Shown here: positions 18,922-37,297 of the stretch, one piece after another
How positions within the stretch are numbered: the first letter of the stretch is position 1
Layout: every line of letters begins with the position of its first letter
Assembly (NCBI GenBank): GCA_030019075.1
Contig: JASEHD010000014.1
Location: 1-38,558 of the forward strand
Direction: 5' to 3'
DNA length: 38,558 bases
DNA from: Bacteroidota bacterium
GTDB lineage: Bacteria > Bacteroidota > Ignavibacteria > UBA10030 > SZUA-254
Notes under the pieces: model-generated
Told to the model about the DNA's origin: nothing
The model's input: only the letters and a program-made list of their open reading frames with translations
Databases searched by the model: none
Program-made: the position numbers and the translations under genes

Positions 18922-19368
18922 TTTTTAGACCTTTCTTTGTTTATACTTACTCTATTCGGTTTTCAGCTTCCCCGTTTTTATTGCAAATTAAAATTGTCAG
19001 TCCATCAAAATATGTCGTTGTCATTATATGCTGTCATTTTTTTTGACATAGCAGGTAACATCCGTAATAACACTCTACGAGTCGTAGATAATATTGTCCC
19101 GTCCAGAAAATTATCGGGTCGGGATAAACTGTTTTATCGTTTATAGTTTCTATCTTTTTCAATTGAATTAAGCTACTTCTTTGATTTATCTGCTATTTTA
19201 TATTCGTCTTTGCTTTTTAGGAAACCGATCAAACTCCATATATGCTATATTTCTAAATATCCTCTGAATCGTTTCGTATAGTATAGTAAAAATCTTAGAA
19301 GATGTCAAGCACAACCGTTATGCCGGAGAAGTGGAGACCATTTCCAAAATGACCTCCACTTTTTCTTC
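18922..19368. other. Gene-poor 447-base stretch with several palindromes
   Basis: No convincing gene. Structures seen: TGCTGTCA with TGACATAGCA around a T run (19029-19053); a perfect 13-base palindrome CTACGAGTCGTAG (19075-19087); a 12-bp imperfect hairpin (19096-19107 with 19114-19125, GTCCCG facing CGGGAT); and the GTGGAGACC palindrome listed separately. It looks like an accumulation of small repeats rather than a regulated leader. Confidence 0.45.
19331..19359. repeat. GTGGAGACC-type palindromic repeat
   Basis: GTGGAGACCATTT (19331-19343) faces AAATGACCTCCAC (19347-19359), 11 of 13 positions complementary, with a short loop. The half-site is shared with the palindrome near 15831 and with the terminus of the IS630-type element at 38252. 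Confidence 0.5.
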
Positions 19369-22170: not shown

Positions 22171-22182
22171 AATAAGTATGGG

Positions 22183-22253
22183 AGTAGTTAAGTAGTTAAG
22201 TAAAAAGTGATTATGATTATCTTACGTACTAAATTACTCATATACTGACCTAC
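22183..22253. repeat. Degenerate tandem repeat of GTAGTTAA / TACTCAT type
   Basis: AGTAGTTAAGTAGTTAAGTAA (22183-22203, described as two and a half 8-base units) and a diverged inverse-sense series of TACT(A)AATTACTCATATACTGACC fill the 83-base gap between obgE and the upstream gene. It is of the same kind as the low-complexity series near 27049, 27242, 28779 and 29871. Confidence 0.4.
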
Positions 22254-26300: not shown

Positions 26301-27005
26301 ATCAAATAAACTCATCATCACATGGAGTTTACCGATAGAAAAAAGGGCGCTCGCTTTCACCGGGGCTGGTGCATCGCTCTCGGCAACACGTCGGGCTTCG
26401 CGCTCTGCTAATTCAGTTTGACCTTCTTCAGCATACATCTCGCCGATGGCAAGTCGTGCCGGTAAAACACTGGAGCTTGCCGGGTATTCCTGAATGATTG
26501 ATCGAAAATTCTTTTTTGCATTTTCCCGTTCTCCAATGCGGCGGTAAAGCTGCCCCGCTTTCAGCAATGCCTCTGGTACAAACTGACTTTTGGGATGAAA
26601 AACTTTTACACGCTCGTATGCTGAAGCTGTCTCTCGCTCATTTCCAAGTGCGAGGAACGCATCGCCGACATTCAGCCATGCCTCAGGTGCTTTTGGATGT
26701 TCAATGTATGCGAGTGCAAAATTCTGAAATGTAATCCGGGCTTCGTCGTACCGCTTCAGCTTCATTTGCGTGTTGCCGAGATAGAAACGGGCTTCAATCC
26801 CATTCGACGTGTTCGGATATGCGTTGATGAAATTTTTAAACTGCTCAGCCGCTAAATCGTACATACCGTCGTTGTACAAACCAATTGCGAGCTTGAACTC
26901 GGAGTTTTCTTTTTCCTGAGCGAAGAGCGAAGAGCTAAGAGCCAAGAGCAAAGAGCATAGAGCGAAGAGCTTAGAGAATGACATGAATAATATTTTCTCT
27001 TTCAT
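23367..27005 (-). CDS. Giant exported tetratricopeptide-repeat protein
   Basis: 1212 residues. A signal peptide (residues ~1-29, ending SSSLFAQ) precedes more than 20 TPR units from about residue 35 to the C-terminus, with the YbgF/BamD-like spacing (e.g. YDLAAEQFKNFINAYPNTSNG.EARFYLGNTQMKLKRYDEA). Such long periplasmic or outer-membrane TPR proteins occur in Bacteroidota and are thought to scaffold envelope complexes. The signal peptide is encoded by a degenerate tandem repeat, and a perfect 17-base palindrome lies inside the gene at 25072. A TTTG-N20-TATCTT promoter stands about 75 bases upstream. It leads the operon with the 368-residue gene. Confidence 0.88.
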   Translation of the reverse strand: MKEKILFMSFSKLFALCSLLLALSSSLFAQEKENSEFKLAIGLYNDGMYDLAAEQFKNFINAYPNTSNGIEARFYLGNTQMKLKRYDEARITFQNFALAYIEHPKAPEAWLNVGDAFLALGNERETASAYERVKVFHPKSQFVPEALLKAGQLYRRIGERENAKKNFRSIIQEYPASSSVLPARLAIGEMYAEEGQTELAEREARRVAESDAPAPVKASALFSIGKLHVMMSLFDDAEATFKSITSNYKKTSAAIAAMFELGKLAITTHDYDAAVEYFKKVSSEDTADDSLQAEAIFETGRAYANQKEYGNAQKSFDKLISKFPKSSLAERTLLEAGRATISNGDNKSALQYAKKLLTINNSQFKGHALLLAADASIGLRLYAEAVRYYTNFIDTHAENPVTPVIMLKLAHLFENKLQDYGKALNIYDQINQRYTQSSQIVDAIVGVARCQENIGDYDGASKTYRDLLSQYPACDQFENIKQKIEFIKHHKMKDRDAGIEKLARLMGEVLTEKSKAELSFKLGAIYFNDLKDYESAAKQFSNAIDGGLSEDNLNDAFYFHARAYHLQSEMNPDLTNNAITDYDAFLKQFPKSKWSEDVAYFNYRLKSQQKNPTETISLAQEFLSNHPKSTQRDKVLFDLARLRRATTKAGAPADALQWLELITKEFPESPLVPNTLLERGNIYLSLKQRDSAAIVWEKAISYPAKDPSTLNAIWNLADLHRQNNDYAEAIVLLKRITVEFFYSSIAEKAISLLPELYIANNEYDQAIQVYSDILDEQRSSPIQKEIDLNLYYHLAAVHEKKGEGQKAIHYYNQYLVADSKGAYANKAFYSLGALARAQGKLENASAYFKQAAALGEIGSTSKDIADLLFQTEQYKEAAKQYFDLAQSTDSVPSKQLYQARGIVATLRLDKLPEAQKLIIDFEKAYPKNRIMKAEFEYEKALVYYRKQDYTTAKKLFENVADDFDDTRFGPWGHYYIGKISEVANKLEEAAKKYETILKKFPQSDVIPRVLLSLGNMHFNAERFEESIRYYQQITKSPENAGDILPYALNNLIEVYESTKMYDEALKTNRDYIERYPNDANIIDKKIKLGMLYIKIGYYDQAVLHFQNLIPEAGSLLEAEIRYNIGEAFYYKGDYQQAILEFLKVPYLVAKQGKVNWTATALYMAGQSYEKISKFDEAIGMYQQVIDRPGIDATFKAAARKEIDRVKSLLKKD
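25072..25088. repeat. Perfect palindrome inside the TPR gene
   Basis: GCCCGCC-TAA-GGCGGGC is a 7-bp perfect stem, GC-rich against an AT-rich background, read in frame as part of LARLRRAT. It looks like a small dispersed palindrome tolerated in a coding region. Confidence 0.5.
26919..26978. repeat. Degenerate (A)AGAGC(N)A tandem repeat encoding a signal peptide
   Basis: On the plus strand the unit reads GAGCGAAGA / GAGCTAAGA / GAGCCAAGA / GAGCAAAGA / GAGCATAGA, about seven units. On the minus strand it encodes SKLFALCSLLLALSSSLFA, residues 11-29 of the TPR protein, i.e. the hydrophobic core and tail of its signal peptide. Confidence 0.75.
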
Positions 27006-27048
27006 GGAAACGTCTTGAAATTTGATTTTTTACCAGTTAATGATAACT

Positions 27049-27076
27049 AAAATCTGCAATCTGCAATCTGAAATCT
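27049..27076. repeat. Degenerate AATCTGC tandem repeat in the TPR gene leader
   Basis: AAATCTGC / AATCTGC / AATCTGA / AATC: four 7-base units. It lies between the predicted promoter and the start of the TPR gene, so it forms part of its untranslated leader. Confidence 0.5.
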
Positions 27077-27078
27077 TT

Positions 27079-27110
27079 AAAAGATAGCTGAATTTTGGGA
27101 GTTGTGCAAA
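27079..27110 (-). promoter_or_regulatory. Bacteroidota-type promoter of the TPR operon
   Basis: On the minus strand TTTG (27110-27107), a 20-base spacer and TATCTTTT (27086-27079) fit the TTTG-N19-21-TAnnTTTG pattern known in Bacteroidota. The spacer closely matches the promoter of the tyrosine phenol-lyase gene. Confidence 0.6.
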
Positions 27111-27241
27111 CAGAAGCAGCGATTCCGATATTAACGAAACCGCCGCAATCTTTTTTTATGATGAATCCTACTAATGCGTATACCGATAGTTTGCGTTAAT
27201 ACAAGGGACGATGTATCCACAAACTATAACCAGCAACTGAT

Positions 27242-27270
27242 GAACTAAAACCAAAAACCAAAAACTAAGA
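27242..27270. repeat. Degenerate AACCAAAAACT tandem repeat
   Basis: Units ACTAAAACC / AAAAACC / AAAAACTAAG repeat in the spacer downstream of the tyrosine phenol-lyase gene. The rest of 27113-27290 contains no recognisable feature. Confidence 0.4.
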
Positions 27271-27290
27271 ATAATATTACAGATACGCAT

Positions 27291-28885
<1,595 letters not shown>

Positions 28886-28930
28886 AACACATTACCAATG
28901 CAAAATTAAAAATGCAAAAGGAAAAAGGGT

Positions 28931-29872
28931 ATGCTCAATTATATTTGGCTCTCACTCATTGTTATTGGAATCTTGGTGGCTGTTCTAAGCGATTGGTGGG
29001 ACATCTCTACGAATAAATACCAGAATGGTGAAATATCGACAGTTTCAATCCGTCTTTCCAACAATCCAACAATCCCGCTTGATAAATCAAAGAAATATCC
29101 TTGCACATTGATTTACTCTGAGGAACTTGGGATTATTCAAAATGCTGAACTGCTTGTTGGAAATGAACATTCTGGGGTGCTCCATATTTCTGTAGATGAA
29201 AACACACCACCTCTGTGGCGAGAAATTTTCAAAGCACAAAAAAATAACAATTATCTCCTCGCTCATGTTAAGTGGGAGAGTATCAGTGGACTAAAATTCC
29301 CTGCAACAATGACGTTTGATCCTGTCAAATTTGTTAAACTTAATAAAGTTACAAATGAAGGCATCATCAAATATGCGAAGATAGCCGTCGAACTTGCAAT
29401 CGGACTCATCGGTATCATGGCGCTTTGGCTTGGGATTATGAAGATTGCCGAGCAATCTGGTTTGGTTGCTAAACTTGCAGGAATGCTCAAGCCGATCACG
29501 ACTCGATTATTCCCGGATGTCCCAGCCGATCATCCCGCGATGGGTGCAATGATAATGAATATCTCTGCTAACATGCTTGGACTTGCAAACGCCGCTACAC
29601 CACTCGGCTTGAAAGCAATGGAAGAGCTGAACAAACTCAACAAAAAAATTGGCACAGCAACCGACGCGATGTGTACGTTTCTTGTAATCAATACGAGTAA
29701 TGTACAATTGATACCTGCAACTGTAATTGCAATTAGAGCAGCATCTGGCTCGGTAAACCCGACTGAAATACTCGGACTAGTGATTGTTGCAACTGCGATT
29801 AGTACGGTTGTGGGTGTGATTACGGTGAAGCTCATGGCGAGATTGCGGATTTTTAAGAGACAGCTTAGCTGA
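28931..29872 (+). CDS. spmA: SpmA-like nucleoside-recognition (Gate) membrane protein
   Basis: 313 residues. An N-terminal membrane helix, an extra ~110-residue soluble insert (KNNYLLAHVKWESISGLKF) and then the Gate/nucleoside-recognition core: IGIMALWLGIMKIAEQSGLV, LFPDVPADHPAMGAMIMNI, ANMLGLANAATPLGLKAM and CTFLVINTSNVQLIP. This matches spore maturation protein A, which is widespread in non-sporulating bacteria with unknown transport role. spmB follows, but with a four-helix-bundle gene between them. A strong promoter precedes. Confidence 0.85.
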   Translation: MLNYIWLSLIVIGILVAVLSDWWDISTNKYQNGEISTVSIRLSNNPTIPLDKSKKYPCTLIYSEELGIIQNAELLVGNEHSGVLHISVDENTPPLWREIFKAQKNNNYLLAHVKWESISGLKFPATMTFDPVKFVKLNKVTNEGIIKYAKIAVELAIGLIGIMALWLGIMKIAEQSGLVAKLAGMLKPITTRLFPDVPADHPAMGAMIMNISANMLGLANAATPLGLKAMEELNKLNKKIGTATDAMCTFLVINTSNVQLIPATVIAIRAASGSVNPTEILGLVIVATAISTVVGVITVKLMARLRIFKRQLS

Positions 29873-29881
29873 GAGCGTAGG

Positions 29882-30343
29882 GCATAGAGCGTAGAGTGAC
29901 ATGGAAAGATTGTTGAACAATTTATTTCAATTTTAATAGGAGAAAGGATTATGTTTCGATTTGAAAATCTTGAGATATGGAAAAGGTCAATTCAGATTAC
30001 TGATGAGATATTTAATATTGCCGATATTATTGAAAGCAAACATCATTACAGATTTGCGGACCAATTACGGGGTGCTGTGCTTTCGATTTCGAATAATATC
30101 GCAGAAGGATCTGGCAGTTCTTCAAAAAGGGATTTTACCCAATTCCTTAATTACACCCATCGTTCGATTTTCGAAACAGTAAATATGTTAATCATTGCTT
30201 GTCGGAGGAAATATATAAATGAGGATCAAAAAAATAATCTAAGAAATGAGCTTGAAGAAATCAGCAAAATGGTTTCAGGTTTTTCAAGATCATTAAATCA
30301 CAAAATTAAAAATACTCTAACCTCTGTCCTCTAAGTTCTATGC
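29882..30343. other. Inverted repeats enclosing the four-helix-bundle ORF
   Basis: GCATAGAGCGTAGAGTGACA (29882-29901) matches the reverse complement of 30325-30343 at 17 positions with one single-base gap. The right arm contains the stop codon of the enclosed ORF and reaches to the first ATG of spmB. In a transcript the arms could form a stem that loops out the ~420 bases between. Confidence 0.5.
29951..30334 (+). CDS. Four-helix-bundle protein (S23 / 23S rRNA intervening-sequence type)
   Basis: 127 residues beginning FRFENLEIWKRSIQI, with the signature YRFADQLRGAVLSISNNIAEGSG and FLNYTHRSIFET: the four-helix-bundle family first seen encoded in 23S rRNA intervening sequences, related to the Avd accessory protein of retroelements. 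Function unknown, nucleic acid binding suspected. AGGAGAAAGG precedes the ATG. It is inserted between spmA and spmB and enclosed by inverted repeats, unlike the usual adjacent spmA-spmB pair. Confidence 0.88.
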   Translation: MFRFENLEIWKRSIQITDEIFNIADIIESKHHYRFADQLRGAVLSISNNIAEGSGSSSKRDFTQFLNYTHRSIFETVNMLIIACRRKYINEDQKNNLRNELEEISKMVSGFSRSLNHKIKNTLTSVL

Positions 30344-30348
30344 TAACC

Positions 30349-30891
30349 ATGGAATTACTCATTAACATAATCAGCACACTCTCAATCATCGCTATTCCGG
30401 CGTTGATATTCTTTATTGTAATCTACGGGACAATCAAGAAAGTAAAAATCTACGAAGCATTCGTCGAGGGTGCTAAGGAAGGTTTCAATGTCGGAGTTAG
30501 GATCATTCCGTACCTCGTTGCAATGCTCGTTGCAATCGGGATTTTCCGTGCGGGTGGCGCTATGGAAATTCTAGCATTCGTTCTTTCACCAATTACAAAT
30601 CTAATTGGTATGCCGGCAGAAGCACTGCCGATGGCAATGATGCGTCCGCTTTCGGGGAGTGGGGCTCTCGGAGTTATGTCGGAGATTATCAATACTCATG
30701 GTGCCGATTCACTCATTGGCAGAATGGTATCCGTTATGATGGGAAGCGGTGAAACAACTTTTTATGTGCTTGCTATTTACTTCGGTTCGGTTAGTATTCA
30801 GAAAACTCGTCAAGCTGTACCAGCAGGCATAATTGCAGATATTGTTGGGATTTTAATGTCGGTATGGTTGGTTAATCTTATCTTTGGATAA
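30349..30891 (+). CDS. spmB: SpmB-like nucleoside-recognition (Gate) membrane protein
   Basis: About 180 residues: STLSIIAIPALIFFIVIYGTIKKVKIYEAFVEGAKEGF, IIPYLVAMLVAIGIFR, RPLSGSGALGVM, and SVMMGSGETTFYVLAIYFGSV, all characteristic of SpmB. ATG 30349 gives the typical family N-terminus; ATG 30340 three codons earlier is possible. It probably forms a complex with SpmA. The last 47 bases (30844-30890) occur again, diverged, at 31550-31596 beyond the toxin-antitoxin genes. Confidence 0.9.
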   Translation: MELLINIISTLSIIAIPALIFFIVIYGTIKKVKIYEAFVEGAKEGFNVGVRIIPYLVAMLVAIGIFRAGGAMEILAFVLSPITNLIGMPAEALPMAMMRPLSGSGALGVMSEIINTHGADSLIGRMVSVMMGSGETTFYVLAIYFGSVSIQKTRQAVPAGIIADIVGILMSVWLVNLIFG

Positions 30892-30964: not shown

Positions 30965-31237
30965 ATGGATAAAACAATTATTGAACATTTCCACATTACG
31001 CGTAAAGAAAGTACAGGAGAACCAATTATTAAGGGAACTAGCGTTTCTGTACGCGCTATTGCTGAACTTTGGCTAATGGGCGCCCAACCGGAAGAAATTC
31101 TTACTCATATGCCTCATCTTTCGCTATCTCAAATTTTTGATGCTCTTTGTTATTATAATGACCACAAGGAGGAAATCGAAAAGTTCATTAAGAATAATTC
31201 TGTCCCTGGGGAATTAAGTGGTACGCGTTTACCTTGA
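30965..31237 (+). CDS. DUF433 family antitoxin
   Basis: 90 residues with the DUF433 core: GEPIIKGTSVSVRAIAELWLMGAQPEEILTHMPHLSLSQIFDALCYYNDHKEEI, a winged-helix-like domain that neutralises and probably autoregulates a PIN-like toxin. The 3' end overlaps the downstream toxin gene by 20 bases. The pair lies between spmB and a second copy of the spmB 3' end. Confidence 0.88.
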   Translation: MDKTIIEHFHITRKESTGEPIIKGTSVSVRAIAELWLMGAQPEEILTHMPHLSLSQIFDALCYYNDHKEEIEKFIKNNSVPGELSGTRLP

Positions 31238-31550
31238 TGAAGATGTCTCGGTACTGATTGCAGTTTTATTACGAGCCAGAAGCATTGATGCAATCGCTAC
31301 AAAAGATGTAGAAATGCTTGGAAAAAGTGACGAAGACAATCTGAAAAAAGCGATTTCATTAAAATGCATTTTTATTACACACAACAGAGTAGATTTTGAA
31401 AATATGTATTCAAAGTACATACAAAATGAAATTCATCACTATGGGATCATAGTTCTCTCCCGCAAACGGGACGTGTACGCTTCTGCTCAGAAATTAGTTC
31501 GTTTCTTTTCACAACATAAAAACATAGATAATCAACTATGGTACGCATAG
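31218..31550 (+). CDS. DUF5615 PIN-like toxin
   Basis: 110 residues: VRVYLDEDVSVLIAVLLRA with the acidic pair DED, KDVEMLGKSDEDNL and FITHNRVDFE, typical of the DUF5615/Mut7-C-like PIN-type RNase toxins paired with DUF433. GTG 31218 is used; it lies within the antitoxin gene and gives the standard N-terminus. The final base of its stop codon (31550) is the first base of the duplicated spmB 3' end. Confidence 0.87.
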   Translation: MVRVYLDEDVSVLIAVLLRARSIDAIATKDVEMLGKSDEDNLKKAISLKCIFITHNRVDFENMYSKYIQNEIHHYGIIVLSRKRDVYASAQKLVRFFSQHKNIDNQLWYA

Positions 31551-35839: not shown

Positions 35840-37297
35840 ATGTCAAACGCAATAGAAGGATTAAAACCAGAGCTTGTTTGGAAATACTTTGCCGAGATAG
35901 CGAAGATTCCTCACGGCTCGAAGAACGAAGCCGCAATATCGAAATATGTTTACGATACTGCAAAGAAATTCGGCTTGGAAGCAAAGCAGGATAAATTTGG
36001 AACCGTGCTTGTCAAAAAACCAGCTTCATCCGGATTTGAGAATAAAAAAAGCATTTGTCTGCAAGGTCATCTCGATATGGTTTGCGAAAAGAATGCCGAT
36101 AAAGTACATGACTTCATGAAAGATCCCATCGAGCTTGTCCGTAAAGGGAATGTAATAATGGCAAACGGAACGACGCTTGGTGCTGATAATGGAATCGCGG
36201 TTGCTACTAACCTTGCCCTCATGGAAGATAAATCGCTTCAGCATGGTCCACTCGAGTTTTTATTTACAATCGATGAAGAAACCGGATTGACAGGTGCAAA
36301 CAATCTTCAGCCCGGTTTTGTGCAAAGTAAAACACTTCTCAACCTCGACTCGGAAGAAGAAGGTGCAATTTACGTTGGATGCTCGGGTGGAAAAGATACT
36401 CTTGGCACATGGAAAGTAACATTTGAGAAAGTCTCTGCCCCTATGGTTGCTGCTGAAGTTAGTGTTAAAGGGTTGAAGGGTGGTCACTCTGGACTTGAGA
36501 TTGATAAAGGTCGCGGCAATGCAATTAAAATTATGAACAGAGTTCTAATCGAGCTCTCTGCTCTCGGCTCTAAACTCTCAGCTATCAACGGCGGAAACAA
36601 GCGCAATGCAATACCGCGCGAGTGCGTTGCGTTTATTTATTTGCCGAAGAAAAATTTAAATAAGGCAAAGAAGATTGTTGCAGAATACAACGAAACGATA
36701 AAAGCAGAGCTCGCTACCGTTGACCCCGATTTAATGATCAGTATGATCGATAAGCCGCGTGAGAAGAAAGCGAAAGTAATCAAGAAAGCTCAGCAGAAGA
36801 AATTTCTTCGAACGATAGCTGGTTTACCGCACGGTGTCATCAAGATGAGCGCTGATATTCCTGGATTGGTTGAAACATCAACTAATGTTGGTGTTATTAA
36901 CACAACAAGCAAAGCAATAGTGGTTTCAACAAGTCAACGAAGTTCCGTTGAATCGGAGAAATTAGAAATCTGTCAAACGGTTGCTTCTATATTCGATCTG
37001 GGTGATGCGAAGGTTGAGCCATCCGTTGGTTATCCTGGATGGAAACCGAATCTCGAGTCGCCGATTTTAAAACATGCAAAGGAAACGTACAAATCACTCT
37101 CAGGCAAGGAACCGCATGTGAAAGCAATACACGCAGGTCTCGAGTGCGGTATCATCGGTGAAAAATATCCAGGGATGGATATGATCTCTTTTGGTCCAAC
37201 GCTCGAAGCAGTTCACTCACCCGACGAGAAGATATACATTGATACGGTTGAGAAGTTCTGGAACTACTTGTTAGCGATATTGAAGAACGTACATTAG
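35840..37297 (+). CDS. pepD: Aminoacyl-histidine dipeptidase / cytosol nonspecific dipeptidase (M20)
   Basis: 485 residues, dizinc M20 peptidase cleaving dipeptides including Xaa-His. Motifs: LQGHLDMVCE (H and D ligands), GTTLGADNG, TIDEETGLTGA (catalytic and ligand Glu), LLNLDSEEEG, KGGHSG in the lid domain, and the C-terminal HAGLECGIIGEKYPGMDMISFGPT and VHSPDE. Length is normal for PepD. A palindrome, not a T-tailed terminator, follows. Confidence 0.95.
   Translation: MSNAIEGLKPELVWKYFAEIAKIPHGSKNEAAISKYVYDTAKKFGLEAKQDKFGTVLVKKPASSGFENKKSICLQGHLDMVCEKNADKVHDFMKDPIELVRKGNVIMANGTTLGADNGIAVATNLALMEDKSLQHGPLEFLFTIDEETGLTGANNLQPGFVQSKTLLNLDSEEEGAIYVGCSGGKDTLGTWKVTFEKVSAPMVAAEVSVKGLKGGHSGLEIDKGRGNAIKIMNRVLIELSALGSKLSAINGGNKRNAIPRECVAFIYLPKKNLNKAKKIVAEYNETIKAELATVDPDLMISMIDKPREKKAKVIKKAQQKKFLRTIAGLPHGVIKMSADIPGLVETSTNVGVINTTSKAIVVSTSQRSSVESEKLEICQTVASIFDLGDAKVEPSVGYPGWKPNLESPILKHAKETYKSLSGKEPHVKAIHAGLECGIIGEKYPGMDMISFGPTLEAVHSPDEKIYIDTVEKFWNYLLAILKNVH

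Follow-up and report, generated by a model that had tools for sequence, protein, structure and literature searches.

An S23-family gene between complementary heptamer arrays at the spmA-spmB junction: a candidate counterpart, in mRNA, of the 23S rRNA intervening sequence

A gene of the S23 family was found inserted between spmA and spmB in the 38,558-nt stretch of DNA analysed here (hereafter the window). S23 is the "23S rRNA intervening sequence protein" family (PF05635/TIGR02436), best known from ribosomal RNA insertions. Our data directly support the insertion relative to an empty site, arm complementarity that is specific to each copy, a 7-nt periodicity of the arms, joint drift of the two arms, coupling of the heptamer theme to the S23 lineage, co-direction with the neighbouring genes and a strand asymmetry. 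With about even confidence we regard this S23-heptamer element, inserted co-directionally at the spmA-spmB junction, as an mRNA-located counterpart of the intervening sequence (IVS) of 23S rRNA. The unit would consist of a G-rich heptamer array, the S23 ORF, and a complementary C-rich array. Pairing of the two arrays in the operon transcript could create a long stem, with the S23 ORF in its loop and the spmA stop placed beside the spmB start. If this stem were cut, in the way that RNase III cuts the rRNA form, the cistrons would come apart and the S23 message would be set free. Recognition of the heptamer by the S23 protein of that lineage is most likely, given how protein lineage and heptamer theme are coupled. 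Gene and arrays may be maintained together as one selfish unit, and we infer that its spread also leaves ORF-less arrays elsewhere.

S23 proteins have no assigned function in the literature examined, and the intergenic heptamers of Cyanobacteria and Bacteroidetes have no agreed origin. Our results tie the two problems together, since every S23 lineage is accompanied by a heptamer of its own, set out as matching arms, and this coupling opens both questions to direct tests of binding and cleavage. We tentatively propose that S23 proteins are lineage-specific binders of heptamer arrays, and that gene and arrays form a widespread bacterial element, autonomous with the gene and non-autonomous as arrays or hairpins without it, residing in mRNAs and at times in rRNA; its first recognised form would be the 23S IVS. 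The intervening sequences of rRNA would then be the part so far noticed of a far larger population of elements located in mRNAs.

The insertion at the spmA-spmB junction

The S23 ORF matched PF05635 (E 1.7e-30, 105.8 bits against a cut-off of 33.8) and TIGR02436 (E 2.1e-28, 98.7 bits against a cut-off of 24) in profile searches. It is flanked by two Gate-domain genes, consistent with SpmA and SpmB. The features of the locus are as follows.

28931-29872, plus strand: spmA, host gene, Gate domain (PF07670); orthologues in 74 of 80 relatives
29866-29898, plus strand: 5' arm in the RNA register (from the fold and pair table); theme common to orthologues and distant relatives
29870-29872, plus strand: spmA stop codon TGA, within the stem base
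29873-29879 (GAGCGTA), 29880-29886 (GGGCATA) and 29887-29893 (GAGCGTA), plus strand: heptamers of the 5' arm, degenerate beyond
29938-29948, plus strand: putative Shine-Dalgarno-like stretch AGGAGAAAGGA, 5' of the S23 start
29951-30334, plus strand: S23 ORF, four-helix bundle, 127 aa (PF05635, TIGR02436; solved relatives 2gsc and 2rld)
30313-30345, plus strand: 3' arm, complementary to the 5' arm (fold and pair table); includes the stop codon of S23 and the first ATG of spmB
30332-30334, plus strand: S23 stop codon, inside the right (3') arm
30340-30891, plus strand: spmB, host gene, Gate domain (PF07670), starting at 30340 or 30349; in most relatives it overlaps spmA or adjoins it

The unit at this junction is an insertion, because spmA and spmB overlap or directly adjoin each other in most relatives (gap of about -14 to 0 nt), where no S23 gene lies between them; two further relatives have short gaps of 43 and 77 nt, also without S23. 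A comparison of spmA-spmB spacing had been suggested by an earlier, sequence-only reading of the window, which had also placed an S23-type ORF between the two genes inside inverted repeats. Both the profile matches and the alignment of the arms bear out that placement. S23 and its arms occur at the junction in six genomes: the window's own, G002, G014, G016, G030, and G034 (the last judged from the spmB start downstream). At three loci (L025, L022 and L031) the heptamer array extends into the 3' end of spmA. A single vertical origin of the spm copies could not be adopted, as the tree was not decisive; the clade comprises the spm copies and one surE-linked copy. The family is abundant, with 16 PF05635 matches in the window's genome, at least one in 65 of 80 relatives, and up to 18 copies per genome.

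The inverted arms reported by the sequence-only reading were confirmed: 29882-29901 (GCATAGAGCGTAGAGTGACA) aligns with the reverse complement of 30325-30343 (GCATAGAACTTAGAGGACA) with 17 matches, 2 mismatches, and 1 gap, and the right arm does include the stop codon of the ORF. A better register was obtained by folding 29866-30350 as RNA. In the predicted structure 27 of 33 positions of 29866-29898 pair with 30313-30345 (4 of them as G-U) without a bulge and with a mean pair probability of 0.94, so that the stem would span from the last spmA codons and stop codon to the first spmB ATG. The terminal inverted repeats around the insert are predicted to form this stem of 27 pairs. The predicted folding energy was -114.2 kcal/mol (z = -2.74), and 0 of 100 shuffled sequences folded as well. 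Dinucleotide shuffles of the flanks gave P = 0.005 (150 x 174 nt flanks) and 0.033 (tight flanks); against swapped flanks the window's copy ranked 7 (row) and 3 (column) of 122, and an ungapped exact repeat finder missed its arms. Taken alone, the arms of this copy are thus of modest significance, and certainty about them comes from the family-wide tests described below rather than from the single copy.

The element sits between protein-coding genes, and the window contains no rRNA match. No group I or group II intron was matched by Rfam within the window, and by eye no reverse transcriptase was recognised among the window ORFs. Elsewhere in the window, a DUF433 ORF overlaps a DUF5615 ORF at 30965-31550, a pair resembling a small toxin-antitoxin operon, and Rfam matched a DUF805b cis-regulatory RNA at 18944-18976 on the minus strand (37.8 bits). 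At the spmA-spmB junction of another genome (L033 in G021) there is a 128-nt insert without an ORF, carrying inverted AAAATCA-like repeats of another unit, as though another element lacking an ORF had inserted at the same place.

Paired heptamer arms across the S23 family

Arms were assessed by aligning the 5' flank to the reverse complement of the 3' flank in 122 S23 copies of the same order. Own arms scored a mean of 18.4, compared with 10.2 when arms were swapped between copies (permutation z 36; the highest mean of 5000 permutations was 11.0), while 120 control ORFs from the same loci were flat (9.7 own, 9.4 swapped). Because orthologues are among the 122 copies, these are not independent and a z of 36 implies more independent events than there are, although exchanging flanks between orthologues renders the test more stringent rather than less. 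A swap test within genomes agreed with this result. Significance at p <= 0.05 was reached by 85 of the 122 copies, and about 30% were without significant arms by the swap test. Median arm length was 36 nt and complementarity was 81%. The absence of inverted repeats around homologous ORFs, which the sequence-only reading had named as evidence against its proposal, is not what this survey of other family genes found, since inverted arms are the rule there. When swaps were limited to orthologues at the same locus, own arms were still favoured (19.6 against 16.6, Wilcoxon p 1.2e-6), which indicates that both arms have changed in step since divergence. Selection on G-U pairs was rejected as proof of RNA pairing: G-U-compatible mismatches in the arms showed no excess over A-C ones (121 vs 158), which leaves RNA pairing unproven as the target of selection, in a test blurred by tandem units that permit several registers.

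The arms are degenerate tandem heptamers, sometimes octamers, with a median of 4.5-5 units per arm. Self-match of the arms peaked at lags 7 and 14 (0.51 and 0.48), with a lesser peak of 0.375 at lag 8; in the ORF it was about 0.25. The repeat unit varies between S23 lineages and alters in step in both arms, and copies at unrelated loci have a common unit where their S23 proteins are similar. Across different loci, arm similarity correlates with S23 identity (Mantel r 0.20; none of 2000 permutations exceeded 0.07). The provision of stop codons in all three frames was rejected as a cause of the 7-nt unit, as the mirrored arm did equally well (0.52 vs 0.46).

The coupling extends across phyla. 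A scan of one genome per species, with an alignment of spm-type S23 as the query, returned 80 loci with 45-68% identity from Bacteroidota, Verrucomicrobiota, Kiritimatiellota, Nitrospirota, Marinimicrobia, Desulfobacterota-type bacteria, and others. Own arms again outscored swapped ones (18.9 against 12.6), although the swaps have a common theme, and lag-7 self-match rose to 0.65 in this set. Defined as three or more G[AG]GC units spaced 7 nt apart, the GAGC theme was found in 48 of 78 cross-phylum relatives and in all five spm copies tested (5/5), as against 0 of 117 other S23 copies; among control genes it occurred in 0 of 120 on the same strand, and the opposite strand of the 5' flank had it in 4 of 120. 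The window's S23 lineage therefore keeps its GAGCNNN theme across many phyla. In a second lineage (the L006 type) paired heptamer arms are likewise retained across the phylum (18.7 against 11.6); strict conservation of the theme was rejected there, because it drifts from GATRTNN towards GATNCTG while arms and period are kept, and the evidence for strict conservation thus covers a single lineage. Heptamer arms also accompany plasmid S23 genes in Nostoc and Riemerella, and the single Pseudanabaena S23 gene examined was without them. With its arms, the Riemerella plasmid gene (L159, 1456-1872) separates sufB from an iron-sulfur assembly accessory gene.

Orientation was counted where both neighbours point the same way, using ORF-based gene calls. 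S23 ran with rather than against such neighbours in 98 vs 3 cases in the same-order set and 52 vs 0 in the cross-phylum set (150:3 in total). Co-directional gene pairs are common at these loci (148 of 167); the same-versus-opposite comparison is independent of that background. The 5' arm was G-rich and C-poor rather than the reverse in 66 vs 1 same-order and 50 vs 2 cross-phylum cases (116:3 in total). Co-direction and strand asymmetry are both compatible with an element that works in the transcript or is tolerated there. In two Emticicia copies (L173 and L194) the arms are flipped, with C-rich heptamers on the 5' side.

Arrays without an S23 gene and competing explanations

Heptamer arrays are also dispersed without the gene. 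The pattern GAGCNNNGAGCNNNGAGC gave 42 hits in the window's genome and the reversed pattern gave none. Some hits lie inside coding sequence, including two in the window, both found by pattern search:

26914-26976, plus strand: GAGCNNN array of eight units, without S23, inside the 5' end of a TPR ORF on the minus strand
36553-36580, minus strand: second GAGCNNN array without S23, inside an ORF

The first of these encodes part of an apparent signal peptide of the TPR ORF. Further short arrays of other units (one of them octameric) occur in the window at 27041-27082, 27240-27275, 28901-28929, and 22174-22203. A survey of dispersed arrays covered 81 genomes, with cognate S23 taken as at least 52% identity to the window's protein. 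All seven genomes with a cognate S23 had at least 37 GAGCNNN arrays, and at least 30 were found in only 2 of 73 others (G003 and G021), an association with Fisher 1e-8 and a family-stratified p of 5e-5. Congeners differ: one with S23 (G036) has 45 arrays, and two without (G023 and G028) have 0. In five genomes rich in other S23 types (G024, G027, G041, G076 and G079) GAGCNNN arrays were absent or almost so. GATRTNN arrays were associated with their own S23 type (p 0.0036), but also with the other type (p 0.0006). These sequence associations suggest a trans effect of S23 on arrays and do not establish one, since the GATRTNN association is no better with its own type. ORF-less hairpins of GAGCNNN and GATRTNN arrays were found at L360 and L361, with predicted energies of -46 and -38 kcal/mol for 180-nt stretches.

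Solo arrays, some of them within coding sequence, point to a process at the level of DNA. In a REP/RAYT-like explanation S23 acts on DNA arrays and aids their spread, the arms are the ends of the element and the mRNA hairpin is a by-product. Array numbers in cognate-S23 genomes and in congeners agree with such a system, as do the ORF-less hairpins. We nevertheless consider it unlikely: the GATRTNN association is not specific to the cognate type, the Pfam/NCBIfam hits of S23 carry no known nuclease or transposase signature, a fixed orientation to host transcription would not be expected of a purely DNA-level element, and near-identical copies are few within a genome. Active transposition was likewise rejected as a reading of such copies, since only one pair within a genome exceeds 56% identity and its members are neighbours. 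Nor do L053 and L054 (95% identical) show homing of S23 on its own, because the similar stretch of 1.3 kb reaches past the element.

Were S23 an ordinary operon gene with a housekeeping role, and the hairpin a processing or stability signal without element behaviour, one would expect what is indeed seen in the Shine-Dalgarno-like site, the co-directional placement and the retention of orthologues at one locus in several genomes. The patchy presence against empty junctions, an arm theme common to relatives at unrelated loci and the high copy number per genome make this explanation rather improbable. That common intergenic heptamer repeats happen by chance to flank an S23 gene is highly improbable even for the window, where solo arrays elsewhere in window and genome and the only moderately significant arms lend it something; for the S23 family it is already refuted by copy-specific pairing against swapped arms beside flat control genes and by the concordant same-genome swaps.

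Relation to known systems

The counterpart reading draws on the Coxiella 23S IVS, which is 428 nt long, has a 28-bp stem cut by RNase III and holds an S23p ORF preceded by tandem GACAGAT heptamers, the first of which marks the RNase III site; its S23p is probably not made in vivo (PMC4990558), a point against the counterpart reading. The spm element resembles it in an S23-family ORF looped out by a stem of about 27-28 bp (predicted here) and in tandem heptamers beside the ORF. It differs in lying between protein-coding genes, and being outside rRNA it is not a 23S IVS; its heptamers occupy both arms, the unit varies by S23 lineage, and ORF-less arrays are dispersed. Removal by RNase III with no subsequent ligation is a feature of the IVS and here an analogy. 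The sequence-only proposal of an mRNA-located IVS-like element, able to be cleaved or excised from the spmA-spmB transcript, is thus partly supported. The insertion, arms, co-direction, fixed 5' strand, predicted stem, and parts held in common with the Coxiella IVS agree with it; cleavage or excision would follow by analogy. It overlooked the heptamers, lineage coupling, and ORF-less arrays, which a purely RNA-processing reading leaves unexplained. Taken together, the results suggest something broader, a genetic element composed of S23 and heptamers.

S23p of X. campestris is a homopentamer (PMC4990558). The entries of both solved S23 relatives contain five chains each, the median of 4.5-5 units per arm is similar in number, and we conjecture that an S23 pentamer could bind an array as a ring. 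Avd proteins of diversity-generating retroelements are pentameric four-helix bundles of a Pfam family common with S23. This family membership is cited by PMC10053308; unlike the Avd systems, the S23 ORF had no reverse transcriptase recognised next to it. With REP/REPIN sequences and RAYT genes the S23 system has in common short repeats that are dispersed and occur beside a cognate gene as well, but its units are tandem heptamers rather than fixed palindromes and it lacks a tyrosine (Y1 HUH) transposase, as profile searches of S23 matched PF05635 or S23-type models only.

PF05635 genes are known from CPR bacteria, where they occupy several insertion sites in rRNA (PMC11270868). A section of another study places them in cas operons, for example between cmr3 and cmr2, and proposes a CRISPR-related role (PMC3936711); the position between operon genes is the same as here, and that section mentions no flanking repeats. 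Among open-licence papers, preprints excluded, none was found joining S23 proteins with heptamer arrays, and novelty is therefore provisional. TAACTGA heptamer repeats are known from Beggiatoaceae, Cyanobacteria, and Bacteroidetes (PMC4679880). These and the cyanobacterial heptameric repeats are, like ours, intergenic tandem heptamers in overlapping phyla, but the link to S23 is absent from that paper, whose text has 0 occurrences of "S23", "23S rRNA", or "intervening". The 3' flank of one S23 gene in our set (L048 in G024) resembles the TAACTGA repeat of Beggiatoaceae and cyanobacteria, and solo arrays of that type occur in the same genome.
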